Positions 18,510 to 35,089 of a stretch of 64,000 nt of DNA are shown piece after piece. The notes below the pieces were generated by a model, which saw only the letters and a program-made list of their open reading frames with translations, ran no database searches and had not been told where the DNA came from. The DNA is taken from the IMG/VR virus record IMGVR_UViG_3300032287_002972, positions 103,991 through 167,990 of that record; one strand, written 5' to 3'. Source of the stretch: a virus. A program made the position numbers and the translations under genes. How positions within the stretch are numbered: position 1 is the stretch's first letter; each line of letters starts with the position of its first letter.

Positions 18510-19250
18510 TTATTTATTTAAAGTTAGTCTAATCTTTTTTTTACCTTTAGTTAATTCACTAATTTTTCTTCTTGTTTCTTCAGAATGTTTTTTACCTTTA
18601 GCAGATTCACTTAATTTTCTCTTATGTTCTTCTGAAAATATTTTACCTTTAGCAGCTTCACTCATTCTTCTTTTTGTTTCATCAGACATATTCTGTTTTG
18701 CTTCACTCATTCTTCTTTTCGTTTCTTCGGATATGTTCTGTTTAATTTCACACATCTTTTTTCTTGTTTCTTCAGAATGTTTTTTACCTATAAGGGACAA
18801 ACTTATATTTCTCTTATGTTCTTCTGAATGTAATTTACCTTTACGAGATTCACTCATGTTTCTCTTATGTTCTTCAGAAAATGGTTTACGAGAGTTAGAC
18901 TCCTTTTTACTTTCAGGTATGAGTCCAAATATTCTTCCAAACACTTTCCTATCCTCAATAGATTTTCTATTGTTAACAGATTTTATTATCTTATTAATTT
19001 CAAGAACATTTATATTTTCAGTTTCACTTAGAATGGTTTCAGGTATCCCCATTATAAAACATGAAGTATATAGATACATGTCTCTACATTCAACATGTAA
19101 ACTATTATAGGATTTTATTCCAATGTTATGATATTCTTTATATTCTACATCGAAAATATCTTTAATAATTCGTTTAGAAATACTTAATGAAATCACATAT
19201 TCATCCATTGTGGTATTAGATGAAAAATTCATACAATTTAATCCTTTCAT
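18510..19250 (-). CDS. NUMOD3-repeat DNA-binding protein
   Basis: 246 aa. Seven tandem NUMOD3-like units from about residue 120 ([15 protein letters not shown] type, with SEExK/R and MSEA/S) form a DNA-binding rod as in the C-termini of GIY-YIG homing endonucleases. The N-terminal 110 residues show no GIY-YIG or HNH motif, so a nuclease is absent or unrecognised. The start overlaps the stop of the first array ORF (ATGA), so it is the last gene of the array operon. Confidence 0.8.
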
Positions 19251-19453
19251 ATTAATGTGTTTTGTTTTATTTTGAAATGAAATTCTATTTGACTATATAG
19301 TTGGACACGTAATCTATCACGTGATTCAATAAAAAAATGAACACCTATTTGATTACGTACTTCATTATATAAATGAACACCTATTTGATTACGTACTTCA
19401 TTATATAATATATTAATTATTTGGTTACGTATTTGGTCACTAATTATCTTCAT
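19247..19453 (-). CDS. QV-array ORF 1 (68 aa)
   Basis: [12 protein letters not shown] start. Contains [12 protein letters not shown] twice in tandem (about residues 16-39), a recent 36-base duplication. The stop overlaps the NUMOD3 gene start by 4 bases. Confidence 0.75.
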
Positions 19454-19632
19454 ATGTTTTGTTTTACTTTAGTATATAGAGGTACGCGTACATCCATATG
19501 TATTTTAAGTTGTACATCATCATACACTTGGTCACGTACTCTACCAATCACTTGTCTTACAGCTTTTCTAAATAAATTTTCTAATATAGTTTCTTCTAAA
19601 CTATGGTTTATTTTTTCACTTATTGGTCTCAT
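19450..19632 (-). CDS. QV-array ORF 2 (60 aa)
   Basis: MRPISEKINHSLEE start, tetrads in the second half (GRVRDQVYDDVQLKI). ATGA overlap with ORF 1. Confidence 0.75.
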   Translation of the reverse strand: MRPISEKINHSLEETILENLFRKAVRQVIGRVRDQVYDDVQLKIHMDVRVPLYTKVKQNI

Positions 19633-19649
19633 GTTAATATATTGTTTGG

Positions 19650-19853
19650 TTAATCATTTGAGGTTGATATATATATGTTATTACATAAATCATTATTTAC
19701 TTTAGATGTTACTTGGGTGCGTATTTCATTATATAATTGAACATTTATTTGTTTATGTAATTTAAAATTTACCTCTTGATGTATCCGATTATTTGTTTGG
19801 CCATATAATTTATTACTTATATGTCTACATATTTGTTTATGTGTCTTATTCAT
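19650..19853 (-). CDS. QV-array ORF 3 (67 aa)
   Basis: MNKTHKQICRHISNKLYGQ start. Ends in a non-standard STSND tail 17 bases before ORF 2. Confidence 0.7.
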   Translation of the reverse strand: MNKTHKQICRHISNKLYGQTNNRIHQEVNFKLHKQINVQLYNEIRTQVTSKVNNDLCNNIYISTSND

Positions 19854-19960
19854 ACATATTGTTTTAGTTGAAGGGTTATTCGTATAGTTACTTGACTATA
19901 TACGTTATTATGTAATTGAACATTTATTTGTTTACATACTTGATTACTTTCTGATTTCAT
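19850..19960 (-). CDS. QV-array ORF 4 (36 aa), internally deleted
   Basis: MKSESNQVCKQIN joined directly to VQLHNNVYSQVTIRITLQ. It equals ORF 6 minus 24 residues lying between two KQIN repeats. ATGA overlap with ORF 3. Confidence 0.7.
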   Translation of the reverse strand: MKSESNQVCKQINVQLHNNVYSQVTIRITLQLKQYV

Positions 19961-20132
19961 GAATAATATTATGTTTTAATTGAACATTTACCTCATCACT
20001 TATTTGTGCCCATAATTTATTACTTATTTGAAGATGTAGATGAACAATTACGTTATCAAATACATGTTTATTTAATTGACCACGTATTTGATTTAATAGT
20101 TGGTCACGTACTTGGTTATTTAGTGATTTCAT
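19944..20132 (-). CDS. QV-array ORF 5 (62 aa)
   Basis: MKSLNNQVRDQLLNQIRGQL start, regular tetrads throughout. Overlaps ORF 4 by 17 bases. Confidence 0.75.
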   Translation of the reverse strand: MKSLNNQVRDQLLNQIRGQLNKHVFDNVIVHLHLQISNKLWAQISDEVNVQLKHNIIHEIRK

Positions 20133-20311
20133 ATTAATCTATTTTGTTTTAGTTGAAGGGTTATTCGTATAGTTATTTGACTATATACGTTATTATGTAA
20201 TTGAACATTTATTTGTTTACGTACATTTATATGTACGTTAGACCTTACTCTCGCATTATTATGAACTTTTTCATTTATTTGTTTACATACTTGATTACTT
20301 ACTGATTTCAT
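20129..20311 (-). CDS. QV-array ORF 6 (60 aa)
   Basis: MKSVSNQVCKQINEKVHNNA start, second KQINVQLHNNVYSQ block, tail LKQNRLI. Parent-like form of ORF 4. ATGA overlap with ORF 5. Confidence 0.75.
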   Translation of the reverse strand: MKSVSNQVCKQINEKVHNNARVRSNVHINVRKQINVQLHNNVYSQITIRITLQLKQNRLI

Positions 20312-20502
20312 ATTTTTTCCCTGAATTTAAATTCTATTTGATTACATACTTGACCATGTATTCGGTCACGACCAACGGGAAGTTTTTCCAGTATTTTATT
20401 ATATAATTTAGTACTTACTCTCGAAGGGATTTTTTTATACATTTCAATATAAAATATTTTAATAAAAAATAGAAAATATATTTTGTAATATACTTGTTTC
20501 AT
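20308..20502 (-). CDS. QV-array ORF 7 (64 aa)
   Basis: Start at MKQVYYKI, preceded by the usual CTATAAGAAAACAC leader; an in-frame ATG at 20526 is upstream. Contains a hydrophobic FLFFIKIFYIEM segment, atypical for the array. Confidence 0.6.
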   Translation of the reverse strand: MKQVYYKIYFLFFIKIFYIEMYKKIPSRVSTKLYNKILEKLPVGRDRIHGQVCNQIEFKFREKI

Positions 20503-20510
20503 GTGTTTTC

Positions 20511-20705
20511 TTATAGTTGTTCCCATACTTTATTACTTATTTGTAACCATATTTGACCCCATACTTGGCCACTTACTCGATTAGATACTTGACCACCTAC
20601 TTGTTCATATAATCCGTTATCTACATTATTATTTACTTGTTTATGTAGTTTCTTACGTATTTGATTAGATACCTGTTCATATACTTGGTTATCTACCGGT
20701 CCCAT
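20511..20705 (-). CDS. QV-array ORF 8 (64 aa)
   Basis: Start at MGPVDNQVYEQV, with an in-frame ATG at 20735 upstream. Very regular tetrads, ending VWGQIWLQISNKVWEQL. Confidence 0.7.
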   Translation of the reverse strand: MGPVDNQVYEQVSNQIRKKLHKQVNNNVDNGLYEQVGGQVSNRVSGQVWGQIWLQISNKVWEQL

Positions 20706-20866
20706 ATTAATCTGTTTTGTTTTATTTGTTCCCATATTTGATTACTAACTCTAATACTTACTCCATCACGTACATCATTATTTACCTGTTTATATAATAG
20801 ATTATGTACTTGATGATTTAATTTAAAACATACTTGTTCATATATTTGGTTTCTTACTTTTTTCAT
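20693..20866 (-). CDS. QV-array ORF 9 (57 aa)
   Basis: MKKVRNQIYEQVCFKLNHQV start, tail IKQNRLIWDR. Overlaps ORF 8 by 13 bases. Confidence 0.7.
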   Translation of the reverse strand: MKKVRNQIYEQVCFKLNHQVHNLLYKQVNNDVRDGVSIRVSNQIWEQIKQNRLIWDR

Positions 20867-21111
20867 ATTACTTTGTTTTGTTTATGTGGATTCGACAATT
20901 GTCTATGTAATTGGTCACTTAATTGTATCCATACTTGTCTATTTACTTGACCCCATATTTGTATTTGTAATTGGTTAGTTACTTGACCCCATATTTGTAT
21001 TTGTACTTGATGACGTACATTAGTATTTACTTGGTCATCAAGTACAAGACCAATTTGATTACGCATCTGAATACGTACTCGTTCATCAATTTTTTTACTT
21101 ACTGATTTCAT
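20863..21111 (-). CDS. QV-array ORF 10 (82 aa)
   Basis: MKSVSKKIDERVRIQ start. QIQIWGQV occurs twice in near-identical copies (DNA near 20950-21010), a tandem expansion. ATGA overlap with ORF 9. Confidence 0.75.
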   Translation of the reverse strand: MKSVSKKIDERVRIQMRNQIGLVLDDQVNTNVRHQVQIQIWGQVTNQLQIQIWGQVNRQVWIQLSDQLHRQLSNPHKQNKVI

Positions 21112-21304
21112 ATGTTTCTACACTTACTTGGTCATATAATTTATCACTTATCTGATTACTTACTTGGTTATATATTTGTTCAAATGTTTCACCATTTACT
21201 TGATTACCTACTTCAGTATATACTTCACCATATACTTGAATATGAAATCTATTATTTACTTTATCCCATACTTGATTACATATTTTGTTATTTACTGTTT
21301 CCAT
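21095..21304 (-). CDS. QV-array ORF 11 (69 aa)
   Basis: METVNNKICNQVWDKVNN start, tail SVETYEISK instead of LKQNI. Overlaps ORF 10 by 17 bases. Confidence 0.7.
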   Translation of the reverse strand: METVNNKICNQVWDKVNNRFHIQVYGEVYTEVGNQVNGETFEQIYNQVSNQISDKLYDQVSVETYEISK

Positions 21305-21504
21305 ATGTTTCGTTTTAATTGATTACTTGTTTGCGCACGTATTTGATTAAAAATCTCATAACCTATGTGGCCCATTATTTGTATCCATAATTGTTTATGG
21401 ATATGGTCATATACTTGTTTATCTAATCGACCACGTATATTATATGATACTATCTCACTTATATGAGAACTTACTGACCCCATTTTATTTTCTACTAAGT
21501 TCAT
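21292..21504 (-). CDS. QV-array ORF 12 (70 aa)
   Basis: MNLVENKMGSVSSHI start; MGSVSSH may be the real start. Tail NQLKRNIWKQ. Overlaps ORF 11 by 13 bases. Confidence 0.7.
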   Translation of the reverse strand: MNLVENKMGSVSSHISEIVSYNIRGRLDKQVYDHIHKQLWIQIMGHIGYEIFNQIRAQTSNQLKRNIWKQ

Positions 21505-21510
21505 ATTAAT

Positions 21511-21693
21511 CTACAATTGTTTTAACAATTCACTGTACATTTTATTCCATATTTGGTTAATTAGATGAAGACGTACTTGATTACCCACTTGATCAGATAC
21601 TTGAACACTTATTTTATCACGTACTTCAATATATGCCTGAACAACTATTTGGTTATGTATTTGTTTAGTCATTTTATTACTTACTGTTTTCAT
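21511..21693 (-). CDS. QV-array ORF 13 (60 aa)
   Basis: MKTVSNKMTKQIHNQIVVQA start, regular tetrads such as VSDQVGNQVRLHL. Six bases before ORF 12. Confidence 0.75.
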   Translation of the reverse strand: MKTVSNKMTKQIHNQIVVQAYIEVRDKISVQVSDQVGNQVRLHLINQIWNKMYSELLKQL

Positions 21694-21901
21694 ATGTTTT
21701 TAGGTTTCTTACTTGATTTCTTACTTGGTACTTTAATTCACTATAATTTTGACCATATACTTGATTATCTACCGGTTCTCTAATTTGTTTACTTACTTGA
21801 CTATATATTTGGATACTCACTTGGTCCCATGCTCGATTATTCATTTTTAACCTCAATTGAGTATGTATTTCTTTACGTATTTTTTTTCTTACCGATTTCA
21901 T
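21677..21901 (-). CDS. QV-array ORF 14 (74 aa)
   Basis: MKSVRKKIRKEIHTQL start, tail VRNLKTYENSK. Overlaps ORF 13 by 17 bases. Confidence 0.7.
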   Translation of the reverse strand: MKSVRKKIRKEIHTQLRLKMNNRAWDQVSIQIYSQVSKQIREPVDNQVYGQNYSELKYQVRNQVRNLKTYENSK

Positions 21902-22092
21902 ATCTTTCCAAATATTTGATTACTCATTTGTCCCCTTATTTGACTACTTACTTGATTATATACTTGAATAGTAATCTGATTACTTACTTTATCAACTACT
22001 TGGTCACATATTTTATTATTTACGTGACTATATATTTGGATAGTTAAATAATCACGTAATTGTGTCTGTTGATTAAACAATCTAATATTCAT
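21898..22092 (-). CDS. QV-array ORF 15 (64 aa)
   Basis: MNIRLFNQQTQLRDYLTIQI start, then dense tetrads to NQIFGKI. Its TQLRDxLxIQIYS stretch recurs in ORF 16. ATGA overlap. Confidence 0.75.
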   Translation of the reverse strand: MNIRLFNQQTQLRDYLTIQIYSHVNNKICDQVVDKVSNQITIQVYNQVSSQIRGQMSNQIFGKI

Positions 22093-22274
22093 ATGTTTAT
22101 TTTAGTTTGAAAACCTATTTGTCTACCACGTTCTTGCTCATATAGTTTATCATATACTTGGTCATATATTTTTTTATTTACTTGGTTAAATATTTGGTGA
22201 TATATTTTTTTATTTACTTGACTATATATTTGGATAATTAGTCCATCACGTAGTTGTGTCTGTCCCAGTTTCAT
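22089..22274 (-). CDS. QV-array ORF 16 (61 aa)
   Basis: MKLGQTQLRDGLIIQIYS start. KKIYDQ/KKIYHQ units show a 36-base duplication (22150-22230). The tail YEQERGRQIGFQTK resembles ORF 39. ATGA overlap. Confidence 0.75.
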   Translation of the reverse strand: MKLGQTQLRDGLIIQIYSQVNKKIYHQIFNQVNKKIYDQVYDKLYEQERGRQIGFQTKINI

Positions 22275-22435
22275 AACGTTATGTTTTGTTCTATTTGGGA
22301 ATATAATTGATTACGTAATTGAATCCATATTTGTGAACGTAAATTAATATGAAAAGGTTCACTTAACTTATCCTGTATTTTATCATATACATGATAATAT
22401 ATGTGGTAATTAATATCTTTACTTACTTTTTTCAT
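22271..22435 (-). CDS. QV-array ORF 17 (54 aa)
   Basis: MKKVSKDINYHIYYHV start, tail YSQIEQNITL. Paralogue of ORF 45. ATGA overlap with ORF 16. Confidence 0.7.
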   Translation of the reverse strand: MKKVSKDINYHIYYHVYDKIQDKLSEPFHINLRSQIWIQLRNQLYSQIEQNITL

Positions 22436-22634
22436 AATGATTTATTCGTTCACTTACAATTTCATGTACTGGGTCGACAAATTGAATATCAACTTGTTCA
22501 TTTACTTTTTCGTACACTTCTCCAACGACTATGTTACATATATTAAACGGTACTTCAACTATCATTTGTGCATACATTTGGTCAAATACCCCACGAGATA
22601 TTTTATGATATACTTGTCCATCAATCGATTTCAT
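22419..22634 (-). CDS. QV-array ORF 18 (71 aa)
   Basis: MKSIDGQVYHKISRGVFDQM start, with NEQVDIQFVDPVHEIV near the C-terminus. Clear paralogue of ORF 47. Confidence 0.75.
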   Translation of the reverse strand: MKSIDGQVYHKISRGVFDQMYAQMIVEVPFNICNIVVGEVYEKVNEQVDIQFVDPVHEIVSERINHYEKSK

Positions 22635-22849
22635 AATGTGTTCTGTTTTATTTCCTTATGTATTTGTACTTGTTCACGTACATTAGAAGATATTTGTACT
22701 TGAACTTGGTCACATATCTCATCATATATTTGGGTTTTTATTTGTTTAAATAATTGAATGTCCAATTGATTAAAAAACACCTCATCATTTAAACGTAAAC
22801 GTATATCAATACGAATTTGTTTACATATTTTATCTTTTACTGATTCCAT
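22631..22849 (-). CDS. QV-array ORF 19 (72 aa)
   Basis: MESVKDKICKQIRIDIRL start, FFNQLDIQLFKQIKTQIYDE core, paralogue of ORF 48. ATGA overlap with ORF 18. Confidence 0.75.
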   Translation of the reverse strand: MESVKDKICKQIRIDIRLRLNDEVFFNQLDIQLFKQIKTQIYDEICDQVQVQISSNVREQVQIHKEIKQNTL

Positions 22850-22854
22850 ATGTT

Positions 22855-23106
22855 TTAATTGAATATATAGTTGAGAAACCTATCAATTAAATCCCAAATT
22901 GGTGTCTTTTTTTTCCTTTGAAGTTCTACTTGAATAATAACTGGACTATTCATTTTACCACATACTTGACTCCATACTTGGCTACTCATTATCCTAACTA
23001 TATCATAACGTATATGGTTATATATGTGTCCATGTACTCGTTTATATAATTTATCACGTACTTGATTATCTACATGTTCAAGTATTTGTCCTCTTACTGA
23101 TTTCAT
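22855..23106 (-). CDS. QV-array ORF 20 (83 aa)
   Basis: MKSVRGQILEHVDNQV start. The C-terminus reads past the usual end into a KKKTPIWDLIDRFLNYIFN extension. Confidence 0.7.
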   Translation of the reverse strand: MKSVRGQILEHVDNQVRDKLYKRVHGHIYNHIRYDIVRIMSSQVWSQVCGKMNSPVIIQVELQRKKKTPIWDLIDRFLNYIFN

Positions 23107-23297
23107 ATCGTTTGTTTTATGTGAATATGTACTTGTTCAGATACTTGAGTTTCAACATTATCATATAACCCTTTACTTACTTGTTCACCTACTTGATAAT
23201 ATATATCATTATTCATTTTACTCCATACTTGGTTTTGTAATTGATTATGTACTTGATTACGTACTTGGTCATTTACAATATTTTTTACTTGTTTCAT
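23103..23297 (-). CDS. QV-array ORF 21 (64 aa)
   Basis: MKQVKNIVNDQVRNQVHNQL start, regular tetrads to SEQVHIHIKQTI. ATGA overlap with ORF 20. Confidence 0.75.
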   Translation of the reverse strand: MKQVKNIVNDQVRNQVHNQLQNQVWSKMNNDIYYQVGEQVSKGLYDNVETQVSEQVHIHIKQTI

Positions 23298-23512
23298 ATG
23301 TTTTCTTTAAATTGAGATTCCACATTTTCTAAAACTATATAAAATTGACCATATACCAACCCACTAATATATTTAAATATTTCAGAGTCTCTGAAATATA
23401 GATCACGTATAGAATATGTATGATGACCTATTTGGGGATATGATCTACTATTTATTAGACGAATTAATTCTTTATCTAATCGTTTGGTTATTTGTTCAGA
23501 TACTCCCTTCAT
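23294..23512 (-). CDS. QV-array ORF 22 (72 aa), repeat-poor
   Basis: Start at MKGVSEQITKRLDKEL, with an in-frame ATG at 23539 upstream. The middle lacks tetrads (SYPQIGHHTYSIRDLYF). ATGA overlap with ORF 21. Confidence 0.65.
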   Translation of the reverse strand: MKGVSEQITKRLDKELIRLINSRSYPQIGHHTYSIRDLYFRDSEIFKYISGLVYGQFYIVLENVESQFKENI

Positions 23513-23684
23513 ATGTTTCTTTAACTTGCACTTCCACATTGTTTAATCGATTAATTACCATATCACTAATATGATTGTATAGTTTAATACGTGATTTATT
23601 ATACGCTTCTCTATGTGGTCCATATACTTCCTTACGTACAATTTTATATAATACAATACGTATTTCTTCACTAACTCGTTTCAT
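23496..23684 (-). CDS. QV-array ORF 23 (62 aa)
   Basis: MKRVSEEIRIVLYKIV start, diverged tetrads, tail VQVKETYEGSI. Overlaps ORF 22 by 17 bases. Confidence 0.7.
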   Translation of the reverse strand: MKRVSEEIRIVLYKIVRKEVYGPHREAYNKSRIKLYNHISDMVINRLNNVEVQVKETYEGSI

Positions 23685-23851
23685 ATGTTTTGTTTTAGTT
23701 GTTTAGTTACTTGTTCACGTAATTGATTATCAATTTGACCCCATACTATATTATACATTTGATAACGTACTTCGTCACTTACTGTGCAATATATTCGACC
23801 ATTTATTTGTCCACATAATCTTTCATATACTTCATGATTTATTATCCTCAT
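23681..23851 (-). CDS. QV-array ORF 24 (56 aa)
   Basis: MRIINHEVYERLCGQI start, tail REQVTKQLKQNI. ATGA overlaps on both sides. Confidence 0.7.
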   Translation of the reverse strand: MRIINHEVYERLCGQINGRIYCTVSDEVRYQMYNIVWGQIDNQLREQVTKQLKQNI

Positions 23852-24060
23852 AGTACAATGTAGTCTTTTAGTTGATTATTTATTTGTTCCTGTATTTTAA
23901 GAATCGTACCTACAAATATTTGTTCATTTACTATTTCATATATTTCACTAGACACTTGCTCACTTAATCGGTAACGTACTTGTTCCTTTGTTTGCTCACG
24001 TAATTTACCATGTAATTTATAATATACTTGTTTACTTACTTGTTCACGTACTATCCTCAT
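23848..24060 (-). CDS. QV-array ORF 25 (70 aa)
   Basis: MRIVREQVSKQVYYKLHGKL start, paralogous to ORF 29. Tail NNQLKDYIVL. Confidence 0.75.
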   Translation of the reverse strand: MRIVREQVSKQVYYKLHGKLREQTKEQVRYRLSEQVSSEIYEIVNEQIFVGTILKIQEQINNQLKDYIVL

Positions 24061-24257
24061 AATGACATGTTTTGTTTTAGTTGATTAGTTATGTGTTTAT
24101 ACAATTCATCAAATATATCATCACGTAATTGATAGTGTATTTGATTAAGTACTTGTTCACTTGTAAAAATATGTACCTGTAGATATATTTTATCAGGTAC
24201 TTTTTTATACACTTGTTTACATACTTGGTTACTTACTTGAGTGTATATTGTCCTCAT
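24057..24257 (-). CDS. QV-array ORF 26 (66 aa)
   Basis: MRTIYTQVSNQVCKQVYKKV start, same N-terminal block as ORFs 27 and 28. Tail TNQLKQNMSL. ATGA overlaps. Confidence 0.75.
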   Translation of the reverse strand: MRTIYTQVSNQVCKQVYKKVPDKIYLQVHIFTSEQVLNQIHYQLRDDIFDELYKHITNQLKQNMSL

Positions 24258-24454
24258 GGTATAACGTTTTCTTCTACTTGGAAACTCATTTGTCTATATA
24301 CTTGTTGACTTACTTGTTCATTTACTCGACTACTTACTTGTTCATTTACTTGTTCATTTACTCGGTTACTTACTTGTTCATTTACTTGTTCACGTAATTG
24401 GTCACGCACTTGTGAACATACTTGGTTACTTACTTGAGTGTATATTAATTTCAT
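24254..24454 (-). CDS. QV-array ORF 27 (66 aa), most regular member
   Basis: MKLIYTQVSNQVCSQVRDQL start, followed by an almost perfect run of REQV, NEQV and NRV tetrads. DNA shows 24-base tandem repeats at 24320-24400. Confidence 0.8.
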   Translation of the reverse strand: MKLIYTQVSNQVCSQVRDQLREQVNEQVSNRVNEQVNEQVSSRVNEQVSQQVYRQMSFQVEENVIP

Positions 24455-24494
24455 AATACTACGTATTGTTTTAGTTGATTACTTACTTGTTCAT

Positions 24495-24701
24495 TTACTT
24501 GGTCACGTAAACGTTTTGTTCTACTTTGAAACTCAGTTGTCCATATACTGGTTGACTTACTTGTTCCCATATTTCATTATTTACTTTTTCCCATACTTCA
24601 TCATGTACTTGTTCATTTACTTGTTCACGTACTTTTCCATATACTTCTTCACGTACTTGTTTACATACTTGGTTACTTACTTGAGTGTATATTAATTTCA
24701 T
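24495..24701 (-). CDS. QV-array ORF 28 (68 aa)
   Basis: MKLIYTQVSNQVCKQVREEV start. About 40 bases follow that still encode an out-of-frame QV fragment, a decayed C-terminus. Confidence 0.75.
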   Translation of the reverse strand: MKLIYTQVSNQVCKQVREEVYGKVREQVNEQVHDEVWEKVNNEIWEQVSQPVYGQLSFKVEQNVYVTK

Positions 24702-24886
24702 AATACTACGTATTGTTTTAGTTGATTACTTATTTGTTCATTTACTTTTCCATATACTTGTTCACGTACTTGTGCGTGGTAATATAACCGAGATGGTTTA
24801 CGTACTTGTTCACGCACTTTGATATATAATTGTTCATGTACTTGATCATATATTTGTCTACGTATTTGTTCACGTACTATTCTCAT
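24698..24886 (-). CDS. QV-array ORF 29 (62 aa)
   Basis: MRIVREQIRRQIYDQVHEQL start, paralogue of ORF 25. Tail SNQLKQYVVL. ATGA overlap. Confidence 0.75.
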   Translation of the reverse strand: MRIVREQIRRQIYDQVHEQLYIKVREQVRKPSRLYYHAQVREQVYGKVNEQISNQLKQYVVL

Positions 24887-25095
24887 AACGATATGTTTTG
24901 TTTTAGTTGATTACCTATTTGTTCCTGTACTTGATCACGTATTGGACCCCATATATTATCATATAATTGTTTATGTATATGAATACGTATTTGGGTATGT
25001 ACTTGTTCACGTAACTTACGATGTAATTTATAATATATTTTAGACCATATTTCAGTCTGTACTTGGTTACATGATTGATGATATATTATCCACAT
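24883..25095 (-). CDS. QV-array ORF 30 (70 aa)
   Basis: Start at MWIIYHQSCNQVQTEI, with an in-frame ATG at 25125 upstream. Tail GNQLKQNISL. ATGA overlap with ORF 29. Confidence 0.7.
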   Translation of the reverse strand: MWIIYHQSCNQVQTEIWSKIYYKLHRKLREQVHTQIRIHIHKQLYDNIWGPIRDQVQEQIGNQLKQNISL

Positions 25096-26140: not shown

Positions 26141-26144
26141 ATAT

Positions 26145-27468: not shown

Positions 27469-27469
27469 A

Positions 27470-28373: not shown

Positions 28374-28394
28374 AATAAGTTTTGTTTTAGTCGA

Positions 28395-28625
28395 TTACCT
28401 AATGATACGTAATAAGTCAGGAACACGTAATTGAATACTCGTTTTATATGTGTTGTTTTTTATTTCCCTATATATCTGTACTTGCACTTGATTACGCATC
28501 TCATGATATATTTTGGTTTTTATTTGTTTAAATGGTTGAACATCAAATTGATTAAAAAAAACATCATCATGTAAACGTATATCGTGACGAATTTGTTTAT
28601 AAATCTTATCTTTTACAGGATTCAT
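28395..28625 (-). CDS. QV-array ORF 48 (76 aa)
   Basis: MNPVKDKIYKQIRHDIRL start, FFNQFDVQPFKQIKTKIYHE core. Paralogue of ORF 19 with a different C-terminus. Confidence 0.75.
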   Translation of the reverse strand: MNPVKDKIYKQIRHDIRLHDDVFFNQFDVQPFKQIKTKIYHEMRNQVQVQIYREIKNNTYKTSIQLRVPDLLRIIR

Positions 28626-28821
28626 ATGTTTCTGTTTGTTTTATTACTTCAATATATACTTGAGCATGTAATTGACTAAATACTTGTAGACGTATCTGTT
28701 CATGAACTATATTACCCATATACATATATACTTTCTGACTCACTCGATTATATATTTTCTCGTCCCCTATGTTACGTACTTTATATACTCGACGTGAAAT
28801 TCTATCTTTTACCGAATTCAT
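28606..28821 (-). CDS. QV-array ORF 49 (71 aa)
   Basis: MNSVKDRISRRVYKVRNIG start, tail IKQTETYESCKR. Overlaps ORF 48 by 20 bases. Confidence 0.7.
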   Translation of the reverse strand: MNSVKDRISRRVYKVRNIGDEKIYNRVSQKVYMYMGNIVHEQIRLQVFSQLHAQVYIEVIKQTETYESCKR

Positions 28822-29023
28822 GTGTACGTCTTTTATTACGTAATAAAGAAGAAATTACCTGAATATATATTGTAATCTCCACTTGACGAAGCATTAAAAC
28901 ACGTATTTGGTTCTCTACTTGATATTCTATTGAACTATCCACTTGTCTCCGTATTTGGTTATACAGTTTGTCACGTATATGAAAACGGATTTTATTACCA
29001 ATGTTATCACTTAGTGCTTTCAT
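28802..29023 (-). CDS. QV-array ORF 50 (73 aa)
   Basis: MKALSDNIGNKIRFHIRDKL start, tail RNKRRTHEFGKR. Overlaps ORF 49 by 20 bases. Confidence 0.7.
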   Translation of the reverse strand: MKALSDNIGNKIRFHIRDKLYNQIRRQVDSSIEYQVENQIRVLMLRQVEITIYIQVISSLLRNKRRTHEFGKR

Positions 29024-29232
29024 ATTGAAATGTTTTGTTCTACGTTCCTAAATACTTGTCTATATGTTTGTAGACGAGATTCTCTTTCTATTTCTTCATT
29101 CATATGGTCAAACAATTCTTGTGATATTTCGTCACCAACACTATCCTGTATTTGATTTAAGAATTTATCACGTACTTGATAACTTATTTGGTGACTTAGT
29201 TTTACATAATTTTTTTTACATACTGATTTCAT
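29020..29232 (-). CDS. QV-array ORF 51 (70 aa)
   Basis: MKSVCKKNYVKLSHQISYQV start, tail FRNVEQNISI. ATGA overlap with ORF 50. Confidence 0.75.
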   Translation of the reverse strand: MKSVCKKNYVKLSHQISYQVRDKFLNQIQDSVGDEISQELFDHMNEEIERESRLQTYRQVFRNVEQNISI

Positions 29233-29417
29233 ATGGATATATTTTGTTTTAGTGGTAAAGTCATTTGACTAAATAGTTGATTATCTATTATACTATATAG
29301 TTTTTCAGACACATTATTACTTACTTGTCGAGATACATTACCCTGTATTTCTTCAATCATTTGATCCCATACTTTTTGTATTGGTGATTCAAGAGTTTTT
29401 TTATTCACTCCATTCAT
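29229..29417 (-). CDS. QV-array ORF 52 (62 aa)
   Basis: MNGVNKKTLESPIQKVWDQM start, tail MTLPLKQNISI. ATGA overlap with ORF 51. Confidence 0.75.
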   Translation of the reverse strand: MNGVNKKTLESPIQKVWDQMIEEIQGNVSRQVSNNVSEKLYSIIDNQLFSQMTLPLKQNISI

Positions 29418-29419
29418 AT

Positions 29420-29506
29420 CTATCCGTTTCGTCTTATTTGAGAATTTACTTGGGTGATTACTTGGTCATGTATTTTTCTTAATGGTTTACTATATGTTGA
29501 TTTCAT
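29420..29506 (-). CDS. QV-array ORF 53 (28 aa), shortest member
   Basis: MKSTYSKPLRKIHDQVITQV then an RRNG stop. Keeps the array start and ATGA overlap with ORF 54, but only a few tetrads remain. Likely a deletion derivative. Confidence 0.55.
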   Translation of the reverse strand: MKSTYSKPLRKIHDQVITQVNSQIRRNG

Positions 29507-29721
29507 AAAAAAAATCTATAAGACGATAAATCAGTTACACATACTTGGTTCAGTACTTGACGAAACACTTGTTCATATACTTGACCCGACATTTCTTCAC
29601 CTACTTGTTTACGTACTTGTTCACTTACTTCAAGTTTTACTTTATCACATATTTGGTTACTTACTTGATTAGTTACTCTACGACCTATTCTATTTTTTAT
29701 TTTAAGATTTACTAATTTCAT
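29503..29721 (-). CDS. QV-array ORF 54 (72 aa)
   Basis: Start at MKLVNLKIKNRIGRRV, which overlaps ORF 55 in ATGA; an in-frame ATG at 29745 is discarded. Regular core SEQVRKQVGEEMSGQV. Confidence 0.75.
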   Translation of the reverse strand: MKLVNLKIKNRIGRRVTNQVSNQICDKVKLEVSEQVRKQVGEEMSGQVYEQVFRQVLNQVCVTDLSSYRFFL

Positions 29722-29900
29722 ATGTTTTGTTTTGTCTGATTCCATACTTGTTCACTCACTTGTTCGAACACCTCACGATATATTTGACCGTATGACTGTG
29801 TAACTACTTTCTCACATGCACGTATACGTACTTCATAATACATGTCATTATGTAATATTTTATGTAATGGATTAATAACTTGGTCACTCACTGGTTTCAT
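29718..29900 (-). CDS. QV-array ORF 55 (60 aa)
   Basis: Start at MKPVSDQVINPLHKIL. Tail EQVWNQTKQNI. Confidence 0.75.
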   Translation of the reverse strand: MKPVSDQVINPLHKILHNDMYYEVRIRACEKVVTQSYGQIYREVFEQVSEQVWNQTKQNI

Positions 29901-30081
29901 ATACATAAAAATATGTGTTTAATTTTAATTGGTTAGTTACTTGTTCCTGTACTTGGTCATTTATTTCATCATATACTTTTCTAATTACTTGAAAATTTAC
30001 ATCAACATCTATATGGTCATGTAGTTTTTCGTTTAGTTTATCAAGTACTTTCTCACTAATTTCTTTATTTGCTAAATTCAT
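29884..30081 (-). CDS. QV-array ORF 56 (65 aa)
   Basis: Start at MNLANKEISEKVLDKL, with an in-frame ATG at 30111 upstream. Tail TNQLKLNTYFYVYETSE. Confidence 0.7.
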   Translation of the reverse strand: MNLANKEISEKVLDKLNEKLHDHIDVDVNFQVIRKVYDEINDQVQEQVTNQLKLNTYFYVYETSE

Positions 30082-30316
30082 ATAAATTTTTTTTATGGTC
30101 ACGTACTTCATTACTTACCTTAAAAAATATTTGACCCCACACTTGGTCAAGTATTTTATTACGTACCTGATTATGTACTTGGTCATATAATTGAATACAT
30201 ACTTGTTCAGATGTTTGAACCTCTACCTTACATATATAATCACGTACTTTTTCATATACTTGGACACGTACATGTTTACATACTTCGTTATGTAGTTGGT
30301 GACTTAATGGTTTCAT
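30065..30316 (-). CDS. QV-array ORF 57 (83 aa)
   Basis: MKPLSHQLHNEVCKHVRVQV start, regular tetrads YDQVHNQVRNKILDQV. The tail HKKNLYEFSK is non-standard. Confidence 0.75.
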   Translation of the reverse strand: MKPLSHQLHNEVCKHVRVQVYEKVRDYICKVEVQTSEQVCIQLYDQVHNQVRNKILDQVWGQIFFKVSNEVRDHKKNLYEFSK

Positions 30317-30572
30317 ATATGTATGTTTTACTTATTTGGGATCGTAATTGATTACGTAAATGTTCATATATATTAGTACGTGGTCCCATATATATGTTAT
30401 CACGTAAATTATTATTTACTCGACCACATACTTTAGTGAACACTTCATCATGTAATTGGTTACGTACATCAATATGCGTTGTATAACCTATTTCTTTCCA
30501 TAATTGTTCATATACTCGATTAATTATGTGATAATATGTTTGTTCAGATATTCGATCACGTACCGATTTCAT
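30288..30572 (-). CDS. QV-array ORF 58 (94 aa), longest member
   Basis: Start at MKSVRDRISEQTYYHI, with an in-frame ATG at 30608 upstream. Irregular tail YIYETIKSPTT. Overlaps ORF 57 by 29 bases. Confidence 0.7.
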   Translation of the reverse strand: MKSVRDRISEQTYYHIINRVYEQLWKEIGYTTHIDVRNQLHDEVFTKVCGRVNNNLRDNIYMGPRTNIYEHLRNQLRSQISKTYIYETIKSPTT

Positions 30573-30741
30573 ATGATTGGTTATGTATTTGAATACGTAG
30601 ATTATCACGTATTTGTTGATGTGTTTCTAAACTATACCTTCGATGTAATCTATTCCATACTAAATAATCCATTTTGAAAAATATTTTATTAAGTACCTGT
30701 TCACGTACTTTAGTATTTATTCGATCACGTACCGATTTCAT
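30556..30741 (-). CDS. QV-array ORF 59 (61 aa)
   Basis: MKSVRDRINTKVREQV start, same opening as ORF 58, tail IHNQSYEIGT. Confidence 0.75.
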   Translation of the reverse strand: MKSVRDRINTKVREQVLNKIFFKMDYLVWNRLHRRYSLETHQQIRDNLRIQIHNQSYEIGT

Positions 30742-30959
30742 ATCGATTGGTTTTTATACATCTTACGTACATCATACCATAATCGATTAGTTATTTGGTC
30801 ATATACTTGATTATACACTTCATTACATATTCGAACTCGGATTCGACTATTCACTTGATTCCATACATTAGTACGTAATTCTTTACCTAATGATTCTTCT
30901 AATGTATCAACAATTTCATCACGTACTCGATTATACATCAATAGACTTACTGATTTCAT
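30738..30959 (-). CDS. QV-array ORF 60 (73 aa)
   Basis: MKSVSLLMYNRVRDEI start, VRICNEVYNQVYDQI core. First ORF behind the internal promoter at 30985-31016. Confidence 0.75.
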   Translation of the reverse strand: MKSVSLLMYNRVRDEIVDTLEESLGKELRTNVWNQVNSRIRVRICNEVYNQVYDQITNRLWYDVRKMYKNQSI

Positions 30960-30984
30960 ATTAAAATGTTTTTTTTTATTATCA

Positions 30985-31016
30985 CAAATGTAATAATAAA
31001 ATCTTAATTATCCAAA
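30985..31016 (-). promoter_or_regulatory. Promoter inside the array
   Basis: On the minus strand TTTG (31016-31013) and TACATTTG (30992-30985) are 20 bases apart, 26 bases before the ORF 60 start, in one of the few real gaps of the array. Confidence 0.75.
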
Positions 31017-31032
31017 CTTATTTTTTTTAATT

Positions 31033-31263
31033 TTACAAATGATGTATTGATATGTTTTGTAGTATATTAGTATGTAATTGAACTTCAGTTTGTTTAATTA
31101 AAATTTGGTTTAGTTTGTCATATACTTTTCTACGTACTTGGTCGTCTATTTGAATATCCGATAGAGTACGTGAGTGTTCATCCATGTTTTCGGTCAATTG
31201 GTCATTCAATCGTTCCCATATTTTACTAACATGTTTAAGTAGTTGTTCGTTCACTGTTTTCAT
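31033..31263 (-). CDS. QV-array ORF 61 (76 aa)
   Basis: MKTVNEQLLKHVSKIWERL start, diverged tetrads, ends just upstream of the internal promoter. Confidence 0.7.
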   Translation of the reverse strand: MKTVNEQLLKHVSKIWERLNDQLTENMDEHSRTLSDIQIDDQVRRKVYDKLNQILIKQTEVQLHTNILQNISIHHL

Positions 31264-31480
31264 TTGATATACTTTGTTTTACAATAGATATTTGTCCCCA
31301 TATTTGTTTACGTATTCTATCACGTATTCTGTCGTATAGTTGATCTTCCACTTTGTCATTTATTTGGTCATATAACCTATCACGTATTTGTCTAAATATA
31401 TTATCATGTAGTTTAATATCGACCCGTTTATCTATTCGATTATACACTTGGTCGTATATTACTTTACTCACCGATTTCAT
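31235..31480 (-). CDS. QV-array ORF 62 (81 aa)
   Basis: MKSVSKVIYDQVYNRIDKRV start. The core alternates RDRLYDQI and RDRIRKQI. Tail ISNENSERTTT. Confidence 0.75.
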   Translation of the reverse strand: MKSVSKVIYDQVYNRIDKRVDIKLHDNIFRQIRDRLYDQINDKVEDQLYDRIRDRIRKQIWGQISIVKQSISNENSERTTT

Positions 31481-31653
31481 AATTTTATGTTTTCCTTTAC
31501 AGTGTTACTTATTCTGTCAGTTGATCGAAACCACATTTTTTTCGATACTTGATTCCACACATGAGTATATAATTGATTAGCCAATTTATTATATACGTCA
31601 TTAGTTAGTTTATCAATTATCATATCACTTATTTTAATATTTACTCGTTTCAT
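31477..31653 (-). CDS. QV-array ORF 63 (58 aa)
   Basis: MKRVNIKISDMIIDKL start, HVWNQVSKKMWFRSTDRI core. Near-copy of ORF 65, same length. ATGA overlap with ORF 62. Confidence 0.75.
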   Translation of the reverse strand: MKRVNIKISDMIIDKLTNDVYNKLANQLYTHVWNQVSKKMWFRSTDRISNTVKENIKL

Positions 31654-31856
31654 AATGTTACCCTTTCTTCTATTTCCATTTGTTCTTCTAATGGTATCAT
31701 TAATTGGTCAGATATTTGTAATAGTACTTCACGCTCAATTTGTTCTTCTACTTGAATACGTACTTTGTAATGTACCGAATTATGTACTAAGTTACGAAAT
31801 TTATAACGTATTTGGTCACGAATATTAAGCATAACTTCACTAGACGCCATTTTCAT
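31650..31856 (-). CDS. QV-array ORF 64 (68 aa)
   Basis: MKMASSEVMLNIRDQIRYKF start, tail LEEQMEIEERVTL, more acidic than other members. ATGA overlaps. Confidence 0.7.
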   Translation of the reverse strand: MKMASSEVMLNIRDQIRYKFRNLVHNSVHYKVRIQVEEQIEREVLLQISDQLMIPLEEQMEIEERVTL

Positions 31857-32029
31857 AATTTTATATTTTCATTTACAGTATTACTTATTCTGTCAGATGG
31901 TCGAAACCACATTTTATTCGATACTTGATTCCACACATGAGTATTTATTTGATTAACCAATTTATTATATACACCATTAGTTAGTTTATCAATTATCATA
32001 TCACTTATTTTAATCTTTACTCGTTCCAT
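31853..32029 (-). CDS. QV-array ORF 65 (58 aa)
   Basis: Start at MERVKIKISDMIIDKL. Duplicate of ORF 63; the two DNA copies (31501-31653, 31876-32029) are nearly identical. Confidence 0.75.
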   Translation of the reverse strand: MERVKIKISDMIIDKLTNGVYNKLVNQINTHVWNQVSNKMWFRPSDRISNTVNENIKL

Positions 32030-32217
32030 AATGATAAATCTAATTGAGTAATTATTTGACCCCATATTTGGTCAGTTATTTGAACACGTACTCGATTTTC
32101 TGTCTCCTTCCATATTTGGTCATATACTTGGACATTCATTACATTATATGCACGTTTAGTTATTTCTCTACGTTCAGGTATTCGTTTATATATTATTTCA
32201 TTTGATACTGATTTCAT
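32017..32217 (-). CDS. QV-array ORF 66 (66 aa)
   Basis: MKSVSNEIIYKRIPERREIT start, later VRVQITDQIWGQIITQL. Overlaps ORF 65 by 13 bases. Confidence 0.7.
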   Translation of the reverse strand: MKSVSNEIIYKRIPERREITKRAYNVMNVQVYDQIWKETENRVRVQITDQIWGQIITQLDLSLWNE

Positions 32218-32414
32218 AATGGTAAATTTAGTTTTATTTGAAAAACCCCTAGGTCATGTACATTTCTCCGTAATTGATTATGCGTTCCATTAAACACTTC
32301 CATAACCAAATCACTACTAAATTTATTACTTACATGGTCAAACATACCAATACATACTTTACAATATATATGTTGATATGTTTTATCTCTTACTCGTATT
32401 TTTCTTATTTTCAT
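32214..32414 (-). CDS. QV-array ORF 67 (66 aa)
   Basis: MKIRKIRVRDKTYQHIYCKV start, weak periodicity, tail FQIKLNLPL. ATGA overlap. Confidence 0.7.
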   Translation of the reverse strand: MKIRKIRVRDKTYQHIYCKVCIGMFDHVSNKFSSDLVMEVFNGTHNQLRRNVHDLGVFQIKLNLPL

Positions 32415-32617
32415 AGTGATATGTTTCGGGTTACTTGTTGAAATAATTGTTCACTTACCTGACCCCATATAACCTCATTTAATCTTTTACGAACATCCTT
32501 AAGTACTTGACTACTCACTTCATCATACACTCTTTGTTTAAACCTTAGATTATTCCACATTTTCAAATGTATTTCTTCTTGTGTTTTATTTTTTTTTTTC
32601 GTTTCATATTGATCCAT
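32411..32617 (-). CDS. QV-array ORF 68 (68 aa)
   Basis: MDQYETKKKNKTQEEIHLK start (alternative MWNNLRFK at codon 20), tail QQVTRNISL. Confidence 0.65.
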   Translation of the reverse strand: MDQYETKKKNKTQEEIHLKMWNNLRFKQRVYDEVSSQVLKDVRKRLNEVIWGQVSEQLFQQVTRNISL

Positions 32618-32801
32618 TTTGTTTAAAATGAGTTTTCATTTGATGATACATTTGACCTCTTAGTTGGCTAATTCCTCTAACCATTAATTCGTTACGAATT
32701 CGATTATATGTTTCATCACCTATTTGAGTTTCGACTTCAAACAAGAATTGATTTAGTGTTTTGGAACACTTACTAAATATTTTATTCCTTACTCTTTTCA
32801 T
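32604..32801 (-). CDS. QV-array ORF 69 (65 aa)
   Basis: MKRVRNKIFSKCSKTLNQFL start, weak periodicity, tail HFKQNGSI. Confidence 0.7.
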   Translation of the reverse strand: MKRVRNKIFSKCSKTLNQFLFEVETQIGDETYNRIRNELMVRGISQLRGQMYHQMKTHFKQNGSI

Positions 32802-32817
32802 GTGTGTCGTTTATTCT

Positions 32818-33009
32818 CTATCTGGAACGTATTTGTATAAGTATGTTACCATAAACTTGATTATGTATTTTAAACCATAATTCAGCAAATAAAGTACCAC
32901 GTACTTGATGATATATTCGTTCACTTAAATGTTTTACTGTTTTATTATGTGACCAATTATACATTTTATAGTGTATTTGTTCATACATTTCTCTACTTAC
33001 AGATTTCAT
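32818..33009 (-). CDS. QV-array ORF 70 (63 aa)
   Basis: MKSVSREMYEQIHYKMYNW start, partial tetrads, tail NILIQIRSR. Confidence 0.7.
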   Translation of the reverse strand: MKSVSREMYEQIHYKMYNWSHNKTVKHLSERIYHQVRGTLFAELWFKIHNQVYGNILIQIRSR

Positions 33010-33194
33010 ATTTTTATATTTTCAATTAATATATTTCGTAACCCAATAATATGTTCGTGAGTTATTGGAACCACTATATTACTACGTACATGTGCCCATA
33101 CAGCATAACTTAATTTATCGTACACAGTTTTGTGTGCGTCATAAGAATAACATACTTTAACTCGATTATATATTTGTTCTTCAACTGACTTCAT
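33006..33194 (-). CDS. QV-array ORF 71 (62 aa)
   Basis: MKSVEEQIYNRVKVCYSYD start. Diverged core, tail LIENIKI. ATGA overlap. Confidence 0.7.
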   Translation of the reverse strand: MKSVEEQIYNRVKVCYSYDAHKTVYDKLSYAVWAHVRSNIVVPITHEHIIGLRNILIENIKI

Positions 33195-33379
33195 AATTTT
33201 ATGTTTTCCGCTACAATACCTACCATTTGAATCATTACTTGGTCAAATATTTTTTTCTCTGTTTGGTGACACATATCATTATATACATGTCTATTTATTT
33301 TACCGTATATTTTATTACACATTTTAGATGCACAATAATCATATACTTTTTTTTTAATTAAATATTTCGTATCATTCAT
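33191..33379 (-). CDS. QV-array ORF 72 (62 aa)
   Basis: MNDTKYLIKKKVYDYCASKM start, few tetrads, tail IVAENIKL. ATGA overlap. Confidence 0.7.
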   Translation of the reverse strand: MNDTKYLIKKKVYDYCASKMCNKIYGKINRHVYNDMCHQTEKKIFDQVMIQMVGIVAENIKL

Positions 33380-33573
33380 AATTTAATGTTACTTTTTACT
33401 CGGTTAAAAAATCTACTATGTACTTGATTTGATATTTTACTACCTACTCGTTCATCTACTTGGTCAAATACATTACCACTAATTTTTCCATATACTTGTT
33501 CATGTACTTCGTCATATAATAGAAACCACACTTTATGTACTTGAATACCTAATCTAACACTTACTTGTTTCAT
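33376..33573 (-). CDS. QV-array ORF 73 (65 aa)
   Basis: MKQVSVRLGIQVHKVWFLLY start, NVFDQVDERVGSKISNQV core, tail VKSNIKL. Confidence 0.7.
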   Translation of the reverse strand: MKQVSVRLGIQVHKVWFLLYDEVHEQVYGKISGNVFDQVDERVGSKISNQVHSRFFNRVKSNIKL

Positions 33574-33755
33574 TATTTTATATTGTTTTTTATATCAATT
33601 GTAATATTAGGGACATTATTGTCAAATAAAACAATGAGTGTATGGAAATATATCTGACCATTTACACCACATAACAATGTGGTGCTCATTTTATTACGAG
33701 AACCACCACTAAAGAACCCTAATTTTTCATTCACTTGAGATTCAATATTTTTCAT
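33573..33755 (-). CDS. QV-array ORF 74 (60 aa), degenerate
   Basis: Start at MKNIESQVNEKLGFFSGG, which overlaps ORF 75 in ATGA; an in-frame ATG at 33770 is upstream. Tetrads mostly lost. Confidence 0.65.
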   Translation of the reverse strand: MKNIESQVNEKLGFFSGGSRNKMSTTLLCGVNGQIYFHTLIVLFDNNVPNITIDIKNNIK

Positions 33756-33940
33756 ACTTTCAGATTCCATTTTATTTGACGAAATATTTGGTTGTGTAAT
33801 TGGTTATTTATACATATAGTAATATTATTTTCTACATGTATACATACAACAAAAGGCACATGTTTGTTTACAATTGAAATGAGTGGTTTCTGTACTTCAC
33901 TCCATATGATTCTTTGAGGTACTTCTAAAGATGTTATCAT
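33752..33940 (-). CDS. QV-array ORF 75 (62 aa), degenerate
   Basis: MITSLEVPQRIIWSEV start, with hydrophobic/valine content but few Q. First ORF after the strong promoter at 33964-33995. Confidence 0.65.
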   Translation of the reverse strand: MITSLEVPQRIIWSEVQKPLISIVNKHVPFVVCIHVENNITICINNQLHNQIFRQIKWNLKV

Positions 33941-33963
33941 GATATATTATCGTTTTGTTAAGA

Positions 33964-33995
33964 CAAAGATAGGTCGAATGTTTCACATAACCAAA
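33964..33995 (-). promoter_or_regulatory. Strong promoter for the array
   Basis: On the minus strand TTTGGTTATG (TTTG at 33995-33992) and TATCTTTG (33971-33964) with a 20-base spacer, the same sequence type as the plus-strand cassettes. The ATG at 33940 lies 23 bases downstream. Confidence 0.85.
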
Positions 33996-34013
33996 TTAAT
34001 AACTTGAACCTTA

Positions 34014-34214
34014 TCATTTTTTTTGTTGTTCATTCTTAATTTGGTCAAGTATGGGTCTATATAATTGTTCACTTACTTGGGTATTCACGTAAATATGTAC
34101 ATCAGAAACTAACTTACCTTGTATCCTTATAGAGACACTATTAAACAAATCCTCATATATTTTGTGACGTATAGAACTAATATCTTTACGTAGTGATTCG
34201 TTAAAGTTCTTCAT
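34014..34214 (-). CDS. QV-array ORF 76 (66 aa), degenerate
   Basis: MKNFNESLRKDISSIRHKIY start, some alternation (VHIYVNTQVSEQLY). Lies upstream of the strong promoter. Confidence 0.65.
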   Translation of the reverse strand: MKNFNESLRKDISSIRHKIYEDLFNSVSIRIQGKLVSDVHIYVNTQVSEQLYRPILDQIKNEQQKK

Positions 34215-34282
34215 AATGTTTTATTTACAACCATATTAATAATAACTTGGTTACGTATTTGATTATACAATAAATGATATGA

Positions 34283-34471
34283 CTAATCTTCTTTTTCATA
34301 TTCTTTATATAATGAAACAAGAGATAAATTATAATTCCTATTAGGGATAAATAATTTAGTCTGAATAGTGTCTCTTACATGATAATTAACATTAGAACAT
34401 ATCGCTTTACTGTGAATATACATTATTTTATTCACCAAAATGTCGCTAATTATTTTTTGAAAATTATTCAT
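34283..34471 (-). CDS. QV-array ORF 77 (62 aa), degenerate
   Basis: MNNFQKIISDILVNKIMYIH start, no clear tetrads. The 68 bases downstream still encode a QV fragment (YNQIRNQVIINMV). Confidence 0.55.
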   Translation of the reverse strand: MNNFQKIISDILVNKIMYIHSKAICSNVNYHVRDTIQTKLFIPNRNYNLSLVSLYKEYEKED

Positions 34472-34476
34472 ATTAT

Positions 34477-34713
34477 TTATGGTTTAATATTTTTTAACGA
34501 ATAAATATTTTCACTTTCAACCTTATTTGGGTAAATATTATTCACATCTTTCCATACTGTGTCCATATGTATACTCACGTCAATCATTACATCATTACAA
34601 ACTTTTTCTCTAGATAATAAAATAATATCAGATAGAAATTTATGCATCTTGTTATCAATAACCTTCTCAATCTTTTTCATTTTTTTATCAATCTTGTTTA
34701 TAACACTTTTCAT
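34477..34713 (-). CDS. QV-array ORF 78 (78 aa), degenerate
   Basis: MKSVINKIDKKMKKIEKVID start, Lys-rich, weak periodicity. Confidence 0.6.
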   Translation of the reverse strand: MKSVINKIDKKMKKIEKVIDNKMHKFLSDIILLSREKVCNDVMIDVSIHMDTVWKDVNNIYPNKVESENIYSLKNIKP

Positions 34714-34898
34714 GGTTTAACATTTTGTTTTACTTGAACATATGATTTATCACTAACCTGTTCAAATACTTCTCCATGAATATCATCATATATTTGTGTA
34801 TGTAATTTATCAGAAAATTTCTTATCTAATAATTTATGTATATGTCTATACACACTTTTAATTAACCGATTACGTATTTTAGTTCTCAAATTCTTCAT
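34710..34898 (-). CDS. QV-array ORF 79 (62 aa)
   Basis: MKNLRTKIRNRLIKSVYRHI start, tail SYVQVKQNVKP. Moderate tetrads, ATGA overlap with ORF 78. Confidence 0.65.
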   Translation of the reverse strand: MKNLRTKIRNRLIKSVYRHIHKLLDKKFSDKLHTQIYDDIHGEVFEQVSDKSYVQVKQNVKP

Positions 34899-35089
34899 CG
34901 TTCATATTTTTTTCTAAATTTAATATCATAATAAACTCTATTCTTAGTTAAATTGGATATGCTATTAATCACAGTTTTATTATTCACTTTATTATAGATT
35001 TTACTACCCACAGTTTCAAAAAATTCTGCATGGTTAGGTTTAATTTTAAGTCCGATGATATCTGATATTTTAATTCTTATATTATTCAT
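34895..35089 (-). CDS. QV-array ORF 80 (64 aa), first in transcription order
   Basis: MNNIRIKISDIIGLKIKPN start, little periodicity remains. ATGA overlap with ORF 79. Marks the promoter-distal edge of recognisable array sequence. Confidence 0.6.
   Translation of the reverse strand: MNNIRIKISDIIGLKIKPNHAEFFETVGSKIYNKVNNKTVINSISNLTKNRVYYDIKFRKKYER

Follow-up and report, generated by a model that had tools for sequence, protein, structure and literature searches.

We analysed a 64,000-nucleotide (nt) stretch of viral DNA, referred to here as the window (positions 103,991-167,990 of the 167,990-bp IMG/VR record IMGVR_UViG_3300032287_002972), in which a long array of small open reading frames (ORFs) encoding tetrapeptide-repeat chains lies near a gene for a DUF6745-type protein. 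The terminase of this phage is T4-like, and the Flavobacterium phages vB_FspM_immuto are among the nearer records. The locus comprises the following features:

18510-19250, minus strand: gene containing NUMOD3, a homing-endonuclease accessory motif; abuts the downstream end of the array
19247-35089, minus strand: tetrapeptide-repeat array of 79 translationally chained ORFs, x-[N/D/E/K]-[Q/K/E]-[V/I/L]
19944-20132, minus strand: array ORF, recently exchanged cassette (97.9% identity over 192 nt to contig G001, 49494-49684)
24254-24454, minus strand: regular array member, modelled by AlphaFold2 as a single alpha-helix
36134-36158, minus strand: strong hairpin resembling an intrinsic terminator (11 pairs followed by TTTTTTT), downstream of the partner gene
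36176-36565, minus strand: conserved QGD-type partner gene, relatives of which match phrog_27831
36591-37544, minus strand: gene for a DUF6745-type protein without a repeat insert (trans form), assigned by alignment and tree

Layout and four-residue register of the array

The array reads from 35089 down to 19247 on the minus strand. ORF calling places 79 ATG-initiated ORFs in it, one fewer than the 80 given in the original prediction, which a model had made from the sequence without database searches. They encode 36-100 amino acids (median 66 codons). Because their summed length of 16,179 nt exceeds the 15,843-nt span (102%), virtually every base of the array is coding. Exact four-base ATGA overlaps join 41 of the 78 pairs of neighbours, and most of the remaining junctions are overlaps of 17, 20, 29 or other numbers of bases, with short gaps at a few. 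The start context is A-rich (about TAAAACAAAACATNAATATGAAATC), and a Shine-Dalgarno sequence is not evident at the array ORF starts.

The encoded chains follow a four-residue period. Relative to within-ORF shuffles, the autocorrelation of hydrophobic residues reaches z = 35, 31 and 28 at lags of 4, 8 and 12. The best-phase fraction of V/I/L/M/F/W is at least 0.6 in 68 of the 79 ORFs (3.6% of shuffles) and at least 0.5 in 77 (28.6% of shuffles). The period that had been attributed to all ORFs is thus real, if slightly overstated in its extent; the most degenerate ORFs lie at the 33-35 kb end. Within the window array, V/I/L fill the in-register hydrophobic position in about 90% of cases, Q/K/E/R/N/H precede it, and the position after it (x) is highly mixed, with Y, R, S, N and H foremost.

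Profile searches of the array ORFs against Pfam, PHROG, NCBIfam and PADLOC found no family over the cut-off, and the matches seen were dismissed as compositional; this probably includes the best, that of one ORF to phrog_36210 (function unknown; E = 4e-6). Homology searches with single array ORFs, the check first proposed, gave no relatives.

The repeat as an insert or an array at DUF6745 genes

An exact pattern of 41 bases, written for four x-N-Q-V units, matched 102 IMG/VR stretches, which fall into two classes: arrays of small ORFs, here called the trans form, and the cis form, long DUF6745 proteins that contain the repeat. The original prediction missed both the cis form and the connection between the array and the DUF6745 gene beside it. 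The window protein encoded at 36591-37544 scores 25.4 bits (E = 9.7e-6) against PF20530 (DUF6745), just below the gathering score of 27 bits; relatives score 29.1 bits (locus L082), 119.8 bits (L062) and at maximum 219 bits. The window protein aligns full-length to clear members of the family and nests within their tree. In relatives, the repeat insert is placed between CQVEINRLLGN and EKRVYEPFSAYIN; the window protein and its same-locus relatives have no insert between the N-terminal domain and the DUF6745 domain.

With the gene at 36591-37544 as the query, eight related contigs were recovered, every one with an equivalent array at the same gene, and further phage lineages also carry such arrays, which vary from 2 to 79 ORFs among loci. 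The phage records searched contained no cultured phage with an array; freshwater Flavobacterium are candidate hosts. The related loci refute the case for an artefact of assembly or for a single long gene split by frameshifts, the alternative named at the outset as sequencing error. The cis form really is one long gene, as that explanation would have it, but an intact DUF6745 gene stands beside the array, and independent contigs from many samples share the layout with conserved starts and ATGA junctions. We give it practically no weight.

The cis inserts comprise 11 to about 85 tetrapeptide units. With the unit written as x-c-d-hydrophobic, 10 of its 12 bases are nearly fixed and a single residue varies, being aromatic, Arg, Gly/Ser or acidic; across 30 inserts of at least 20 units, entropy is 1.5 bits at the first x-codon base and 0.05-0.25 at most bases of the codons for d and the hydrophobic residue. 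The x set is W/R/G/E through TGG/AGG/GGG/GAG in most inserts, R/Y/D/G through CGC/TAC/GAC/GGC in L231, and R/W/S in L120 and L218, and Ser at d is encoded by TCG in L227 and by AGY in L230 and L236. A small x set reached through differing codons, together with the Ser codon switch, speaks for a constraint on amino acids and against a DNA motif. We dropped the reading of the repeats as a DNA- or RNA-level element (a binding-site array or a recombination or packaging site) with incidental ORFs. The 12-bp periodicity and the strong homogeneity of cis units would suit such an element; however, unit DNA differs wholly between phages while the amino-acid pattern stays constant, the Ser codon switch and the hydrophobic-position test described below both contradict it, and an Rfam search gave no match, leaving it very improbable.

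Cis and trans repeats have in common D/N at c, Q/S at d and V at the hydrophobic position, and their shares of residues at x are.25 and.23 for W and.29 and.21 for R, respectively; Gly makes up 25% of x in cis versus 7% in the trans arrays of other phages. Insert variants include x-[AD]-S-V, x-[DG]-Q-L and S-L types, and QL-type repeats form a trans array in one phage of 62% GC and are found in cis in gp38 of the Mycobacterium prophage prophiGD102-1. The inserts of L090 and L242 hold 11 and 64 units between flanking gene parts that are 82-87% identical, so the number and order of units turn over fast. DUF6745 or repeat proteins were found in contigs with GC contents of 22-71%, including one Mycobacterium prophage and one Candidatus Dojkabacteria contig. 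A pattern scan of genome contigs returned almost only simple repeats in other proteins, with one real DUF6745 protein and one probable one (N-terminus).

The two forms exclude each other. Among 55 distinct full-length DUF6745 loci, collected by scanning with an alignment made only of DUF6745 proteins that lack the insert, and so without use of the repeats, 18 have the insert only, 24 an array only, 13 neither and 0 both (Fisher p = 1.5e-6). This sample is quoted in place of a first table (p = 2e-13), which was set aside as biased because some of its loci had been found via the repeats. A tree of 73 cores, built after removal of the insert, shows the forms interleaved, with at least 7 cis/trans changes; monophyly of the trans form is rejected (approximately unbiased (AU) test, p = 7e-85), and the window clade is sister to the cis protein L082 (support 95/83). 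Thus, the trans core lacks exactly the insert, and the two forms share the repeat, are mutually exclusive and have switched several times. That the repeat domain is equivalent in cis and in trans is our best-supported statement and, judged from these sequence comparisons, probably correct.

Some DUF6745 genes depart from both patterns. In L336 (6984-8609) and L334 (7128-8621) the insert is A-T-x-[V/A/D], with x being N/S/R/H/Y/D, which preserves the four-residue period but not the hydrophobic residue. At the insert site, the L286/L349 and L288/L346 proteins carry unrelated sequence that is not repetitive, and an array was not found. In L292 (Nocardia farcinica plasmid 3, NZ_LN868940.1), the start annotated for the DUF6745 coding sequence lies downstream of the N-terminal part, which is in another frame; the intervening repeat reads out of frame, which locates the frame change in the repeat.

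Selection and whole-ORF exchange

We asked which residues replace Val at the hydrophobic position when the register is assigned without the residue under test. I/L/M/F replaced it 478 times and A/D/E/G 14 times, against a neutral expectation of 1:1, since the one-step neighbours of Val codons split evenly between these two groups. Stop-creating differences among close homologues number 3 compared with about 22 expected, a count that ORF calling biases downward. Overall amino-acid constraint is weak. By the Nei-Gojobori method, the array has a dN/dS (omega) of 0.4-0.8 versus 0.11-0.19 in adjacent genes of the same close strains, and a null matched for transition/transversion ratio (kappa) puts it at about 0.87, a value that replaced a more flattering 0.5; plain dN/dS, one of the checks first suggested, is therefore a weak argument by itself and not decisive. 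The hydrophobic bias, stop avoidance and weak overall constraint together mean that the pattern is kept while the sequence is otherwise free. The array ORFs are under protein-level selection, as originally claimed, the evidence being stop avoidance and the kind of residue retained. When close strains were compared, the test of selection by tetrad position fell short of significance (p = 0.25), whereas the long-term residue test reached it.

Three of the eight related contigs, G003, G005 and G006, are near enough for ORF-by-ORF comparison. Among close contigs, array homologues of 90-100% identity occupy different places, and ORFs are gained, lost or replaced whole. Of the homology-block edges within arrays (n = 40), 93% have an ATGA junction no more than 25 nt away, compared with 29% of random positions; together with the displaced homologues, this shows that the array is shuffled in units of whole ORFs. 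The cassette at 19944-20132 is a recent case: both its flanks are unrelated between the window and G001, and the DUF6745 regions are merely 73% identical. Arrays thus evolve through the swap, gain and loss of entire ORFs at ATGA junctions, and the mix-and-match character predicted for the proteins is literally true of the DNA.

Such turnover could also arise from selfish or neutral expansion, in which repeats escaped from DUF6745 as small translated ORFs and spread by junction recombination, so that their products do little and the link to DUF6745 is historical. An omega of about 0.5-0.87, cassette turnover without conserved order and the range in array size from 2 to 79 are what this explanation would lead one to expect. 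It sits badly with the retention of the hydrophobic position (478 to 14), with the 3 stops where about 22 are expected (subject to the ORF-calling bias) and with the exclusivity of insert and array through repeated switching, and we find it doubtful.

Genes of NUMOD3 or HNH type adjoin or break up arrays (window 18510-19250, L010:13660-14046, L016:19302-19661), which suggests that homing elements use arrays as targets. A further internally repeated region with many cross-matches is present near the array locus of two related phages, in L034 (G008:1408-4361) and L030 (G004:36005-36992). Elsewhere in the window, 11590-13921 holds three paralogous genes with an initial QALELK-LGFDEPC motif, also present in the relatives L009 and L010, and ARAGORN calls a tRNA-like gene with a four-base anticodon (agat) at 14669-14746 on the plus strand.

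A proposed repertoire of chains in trans and its comparison with known systems

The neighbours of DUF6745 genes give some indication of where the system acts. The QGD protein (95-130 amino acids) commonly adjoins DUF6745 in cis and trans phages alike, and phrog_27831 is matched by 20 of 85 DUF6745-neighbour proteins. Other neighbours are YqaJ/RecE, RecT, UvsX/RecA, Sak4 and DNA methyltransferases, a recombination and replication context. Microcystis phage Ma-LMM01 has a DUF6745-type gene (gp174) and a QGD gene (gp175); the neighbours gp166, gp169, gp173, gp180 and gp181 are middle (replication-class) genes in a transcriptome study, the main text of which does not name gp174 or gp175 (PMC5780444). 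The replication-gene context and the middle-class neighbours suggest that the DUF6745 system acts inside the cell, rather than as part of the virion. On a Deinococcus psychrotolerans plasmid (NZ_CP034185.1, 135908-136258), a DUF6745 gene stands beside or overlaps a radical SAM gene of the STM4011 family, which may hint at the cellular role of DUF6745. A literature search on DUF6745 found no paper.

Under the explanation that we favour, the free chains of the array form a repertoire that supplies in trans the hypervariable domain which relatives carry as an insert in DUF6745. Chains of about 60-70 residues, modelled as long helices, would bind the DUF6745 core non-covalently inside the infected cell while the phage replicates, and the QGD partner would probably take part. 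The residues that follow the hydrophobic positions would form a variable surface diversified against a changing host target, through unit shuffling in cis and through paralogue expansion and cassette exchange in trans, and, through ATGA coupling, a single transcript would give rise to similar amounts of every chain. Because docking and a diversified binding surface go beyond the comparisons themselves, we judge this full explanation evenly balanced between right and wrong. More speculative, and rather unlikely, is its extension to a new modular recognition polymer, in which the one variable residue of each four-residue unit, taken from a small chemical alphabet, spells specificity. Some phages would then encode the polymer within the DUF6745 carrier, and in others a bare carrier would load from a library of dozens of free chains that phages trade as single cassettes, which would amount to a combinatorial repertoire for recognition.

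Several observations weigh against the favoured explanation. About a quarter of the sampled loci have neither insert nor array, partly because of nearby contig ends: among these 13, the contigs of L305, L322 and L323 end less than 2 kb from the gene, the lineage of L300 and L273 has repeat ORFs elsewhere, on another contig, and L334 and L336 hold the A-T-x repeat, which the filter missed. Phylogenetically independent pairs run 4 to 0 in the expected direction, too few for significance (p = 0.125). In the window, the terminator-like hairpin divides the DUF6745 operon from the array, which suggests that the array is a separate transcript. In the AlphaFold2 model of the cis protein L100, the N- and C-terminal parts are confident, but the helical insert between two helices has a confidence below 50. 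The Gly-rich cis repeats are poor helix formers, and cis and trans chains may differ in fold. DUF6745 itself has no solved structure or fold match in PDB sequence searches and Foldseek searches of the model.

The chain structure also bears on the main rival, that low-complexity, self-associating chains, anchored by DUF6745, build a scaffold, compartment or matrix inside infected cells, either as a condensate with Trp/Tyr and Arg stickers and Gly/Ser/Asn/Gln spacers or as helix bundles. In such a material composition matters and order does not, which would explain the fast turnover. The restricted alphabet of aromatic, Arg and Gly/Ser/acidic residues reached via differing codons, the free exchange of order and number, and the very high copy number in the window array are all consistent with it. 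However, the window chains are poor in Gly and Trp, and the member at 24254-24454 is predicted to be one stable helix (residues 2-64, mean predicted local distance difference test (pLDDT) 95), in keeping with the helical chains originally proposed. Long helices are readily over-predicted for such repeats, and x positions in cis are Gly-rich, so the helical fold is tentative. We consider the scaffold possible, if unlikely.

If the chains do dock on the DUF6745 core, phages would be able to exchange variable subunits from a repertoire, a natural arrangement for adapting quickly and one that might be turned into a tool for modular recognition. Should the chains serve as scaffolding instead, a large unannotated class of phage proteins still becomes accessible to direct test.

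Several known systems resemble parts of this arrangement. TALE, PPR and PUF proteins consist of near-identical repeats of about 35 residues whose differences are concentrated at one or two residues per unit. The phage repeats differ in the same manner, a likeness of sequence pattern, but their unit is 4 residues, whereas TALE-like code proteins bind nucleic acid with helical-hairpin repeats of about 35; we know of no counterpart to the supply of repeats in trans among modular repeat proteins. Integron arrays likewise consist of small-gene cassettes that can be interchanged and that meet at a conserved junction, but here the junction is the ATGA start/stop overlap of translational coupling and the cassettes all belong to one repeat family; the integron reading was dropped, as tyrosine integrase PF00589 was not matched in five, possibly incomplete, records. 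Diversity-generating retroelements target hypervariability to set positions, and the repeat chains are hypervariable at set positions; with no match to reverse transcriptase PF00078 in eight records, this reading was dropped too. The multigene families of large viruses, such as those of African swine fever virus, are tandem, expanded and quickly turning-over paralogues, as are the array ORFs, whereas array members are translationally coupled tetrapeptide chains of about 66 amino acids and stand in for a domain of the protein encoded nearby. We know of no arrangement in which a domain is encoded, time and again, in one of two ways, as an insert or as a big array of separate coupled mini-genes, and the literature searched for the layout, the repeat and DUF6745 described none, in agreement with the original prediction. 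Phage DUF6745 (PF20530) proteins with the tetrapeptide insert share the repeat, the partner gene and the genomic niche with the window; the window protein differs from them in lacking the repeat domain, which is encoded as 79 separate ORFs, and this DUF6745-linked cis/trans arrangement of the repeat is new here.

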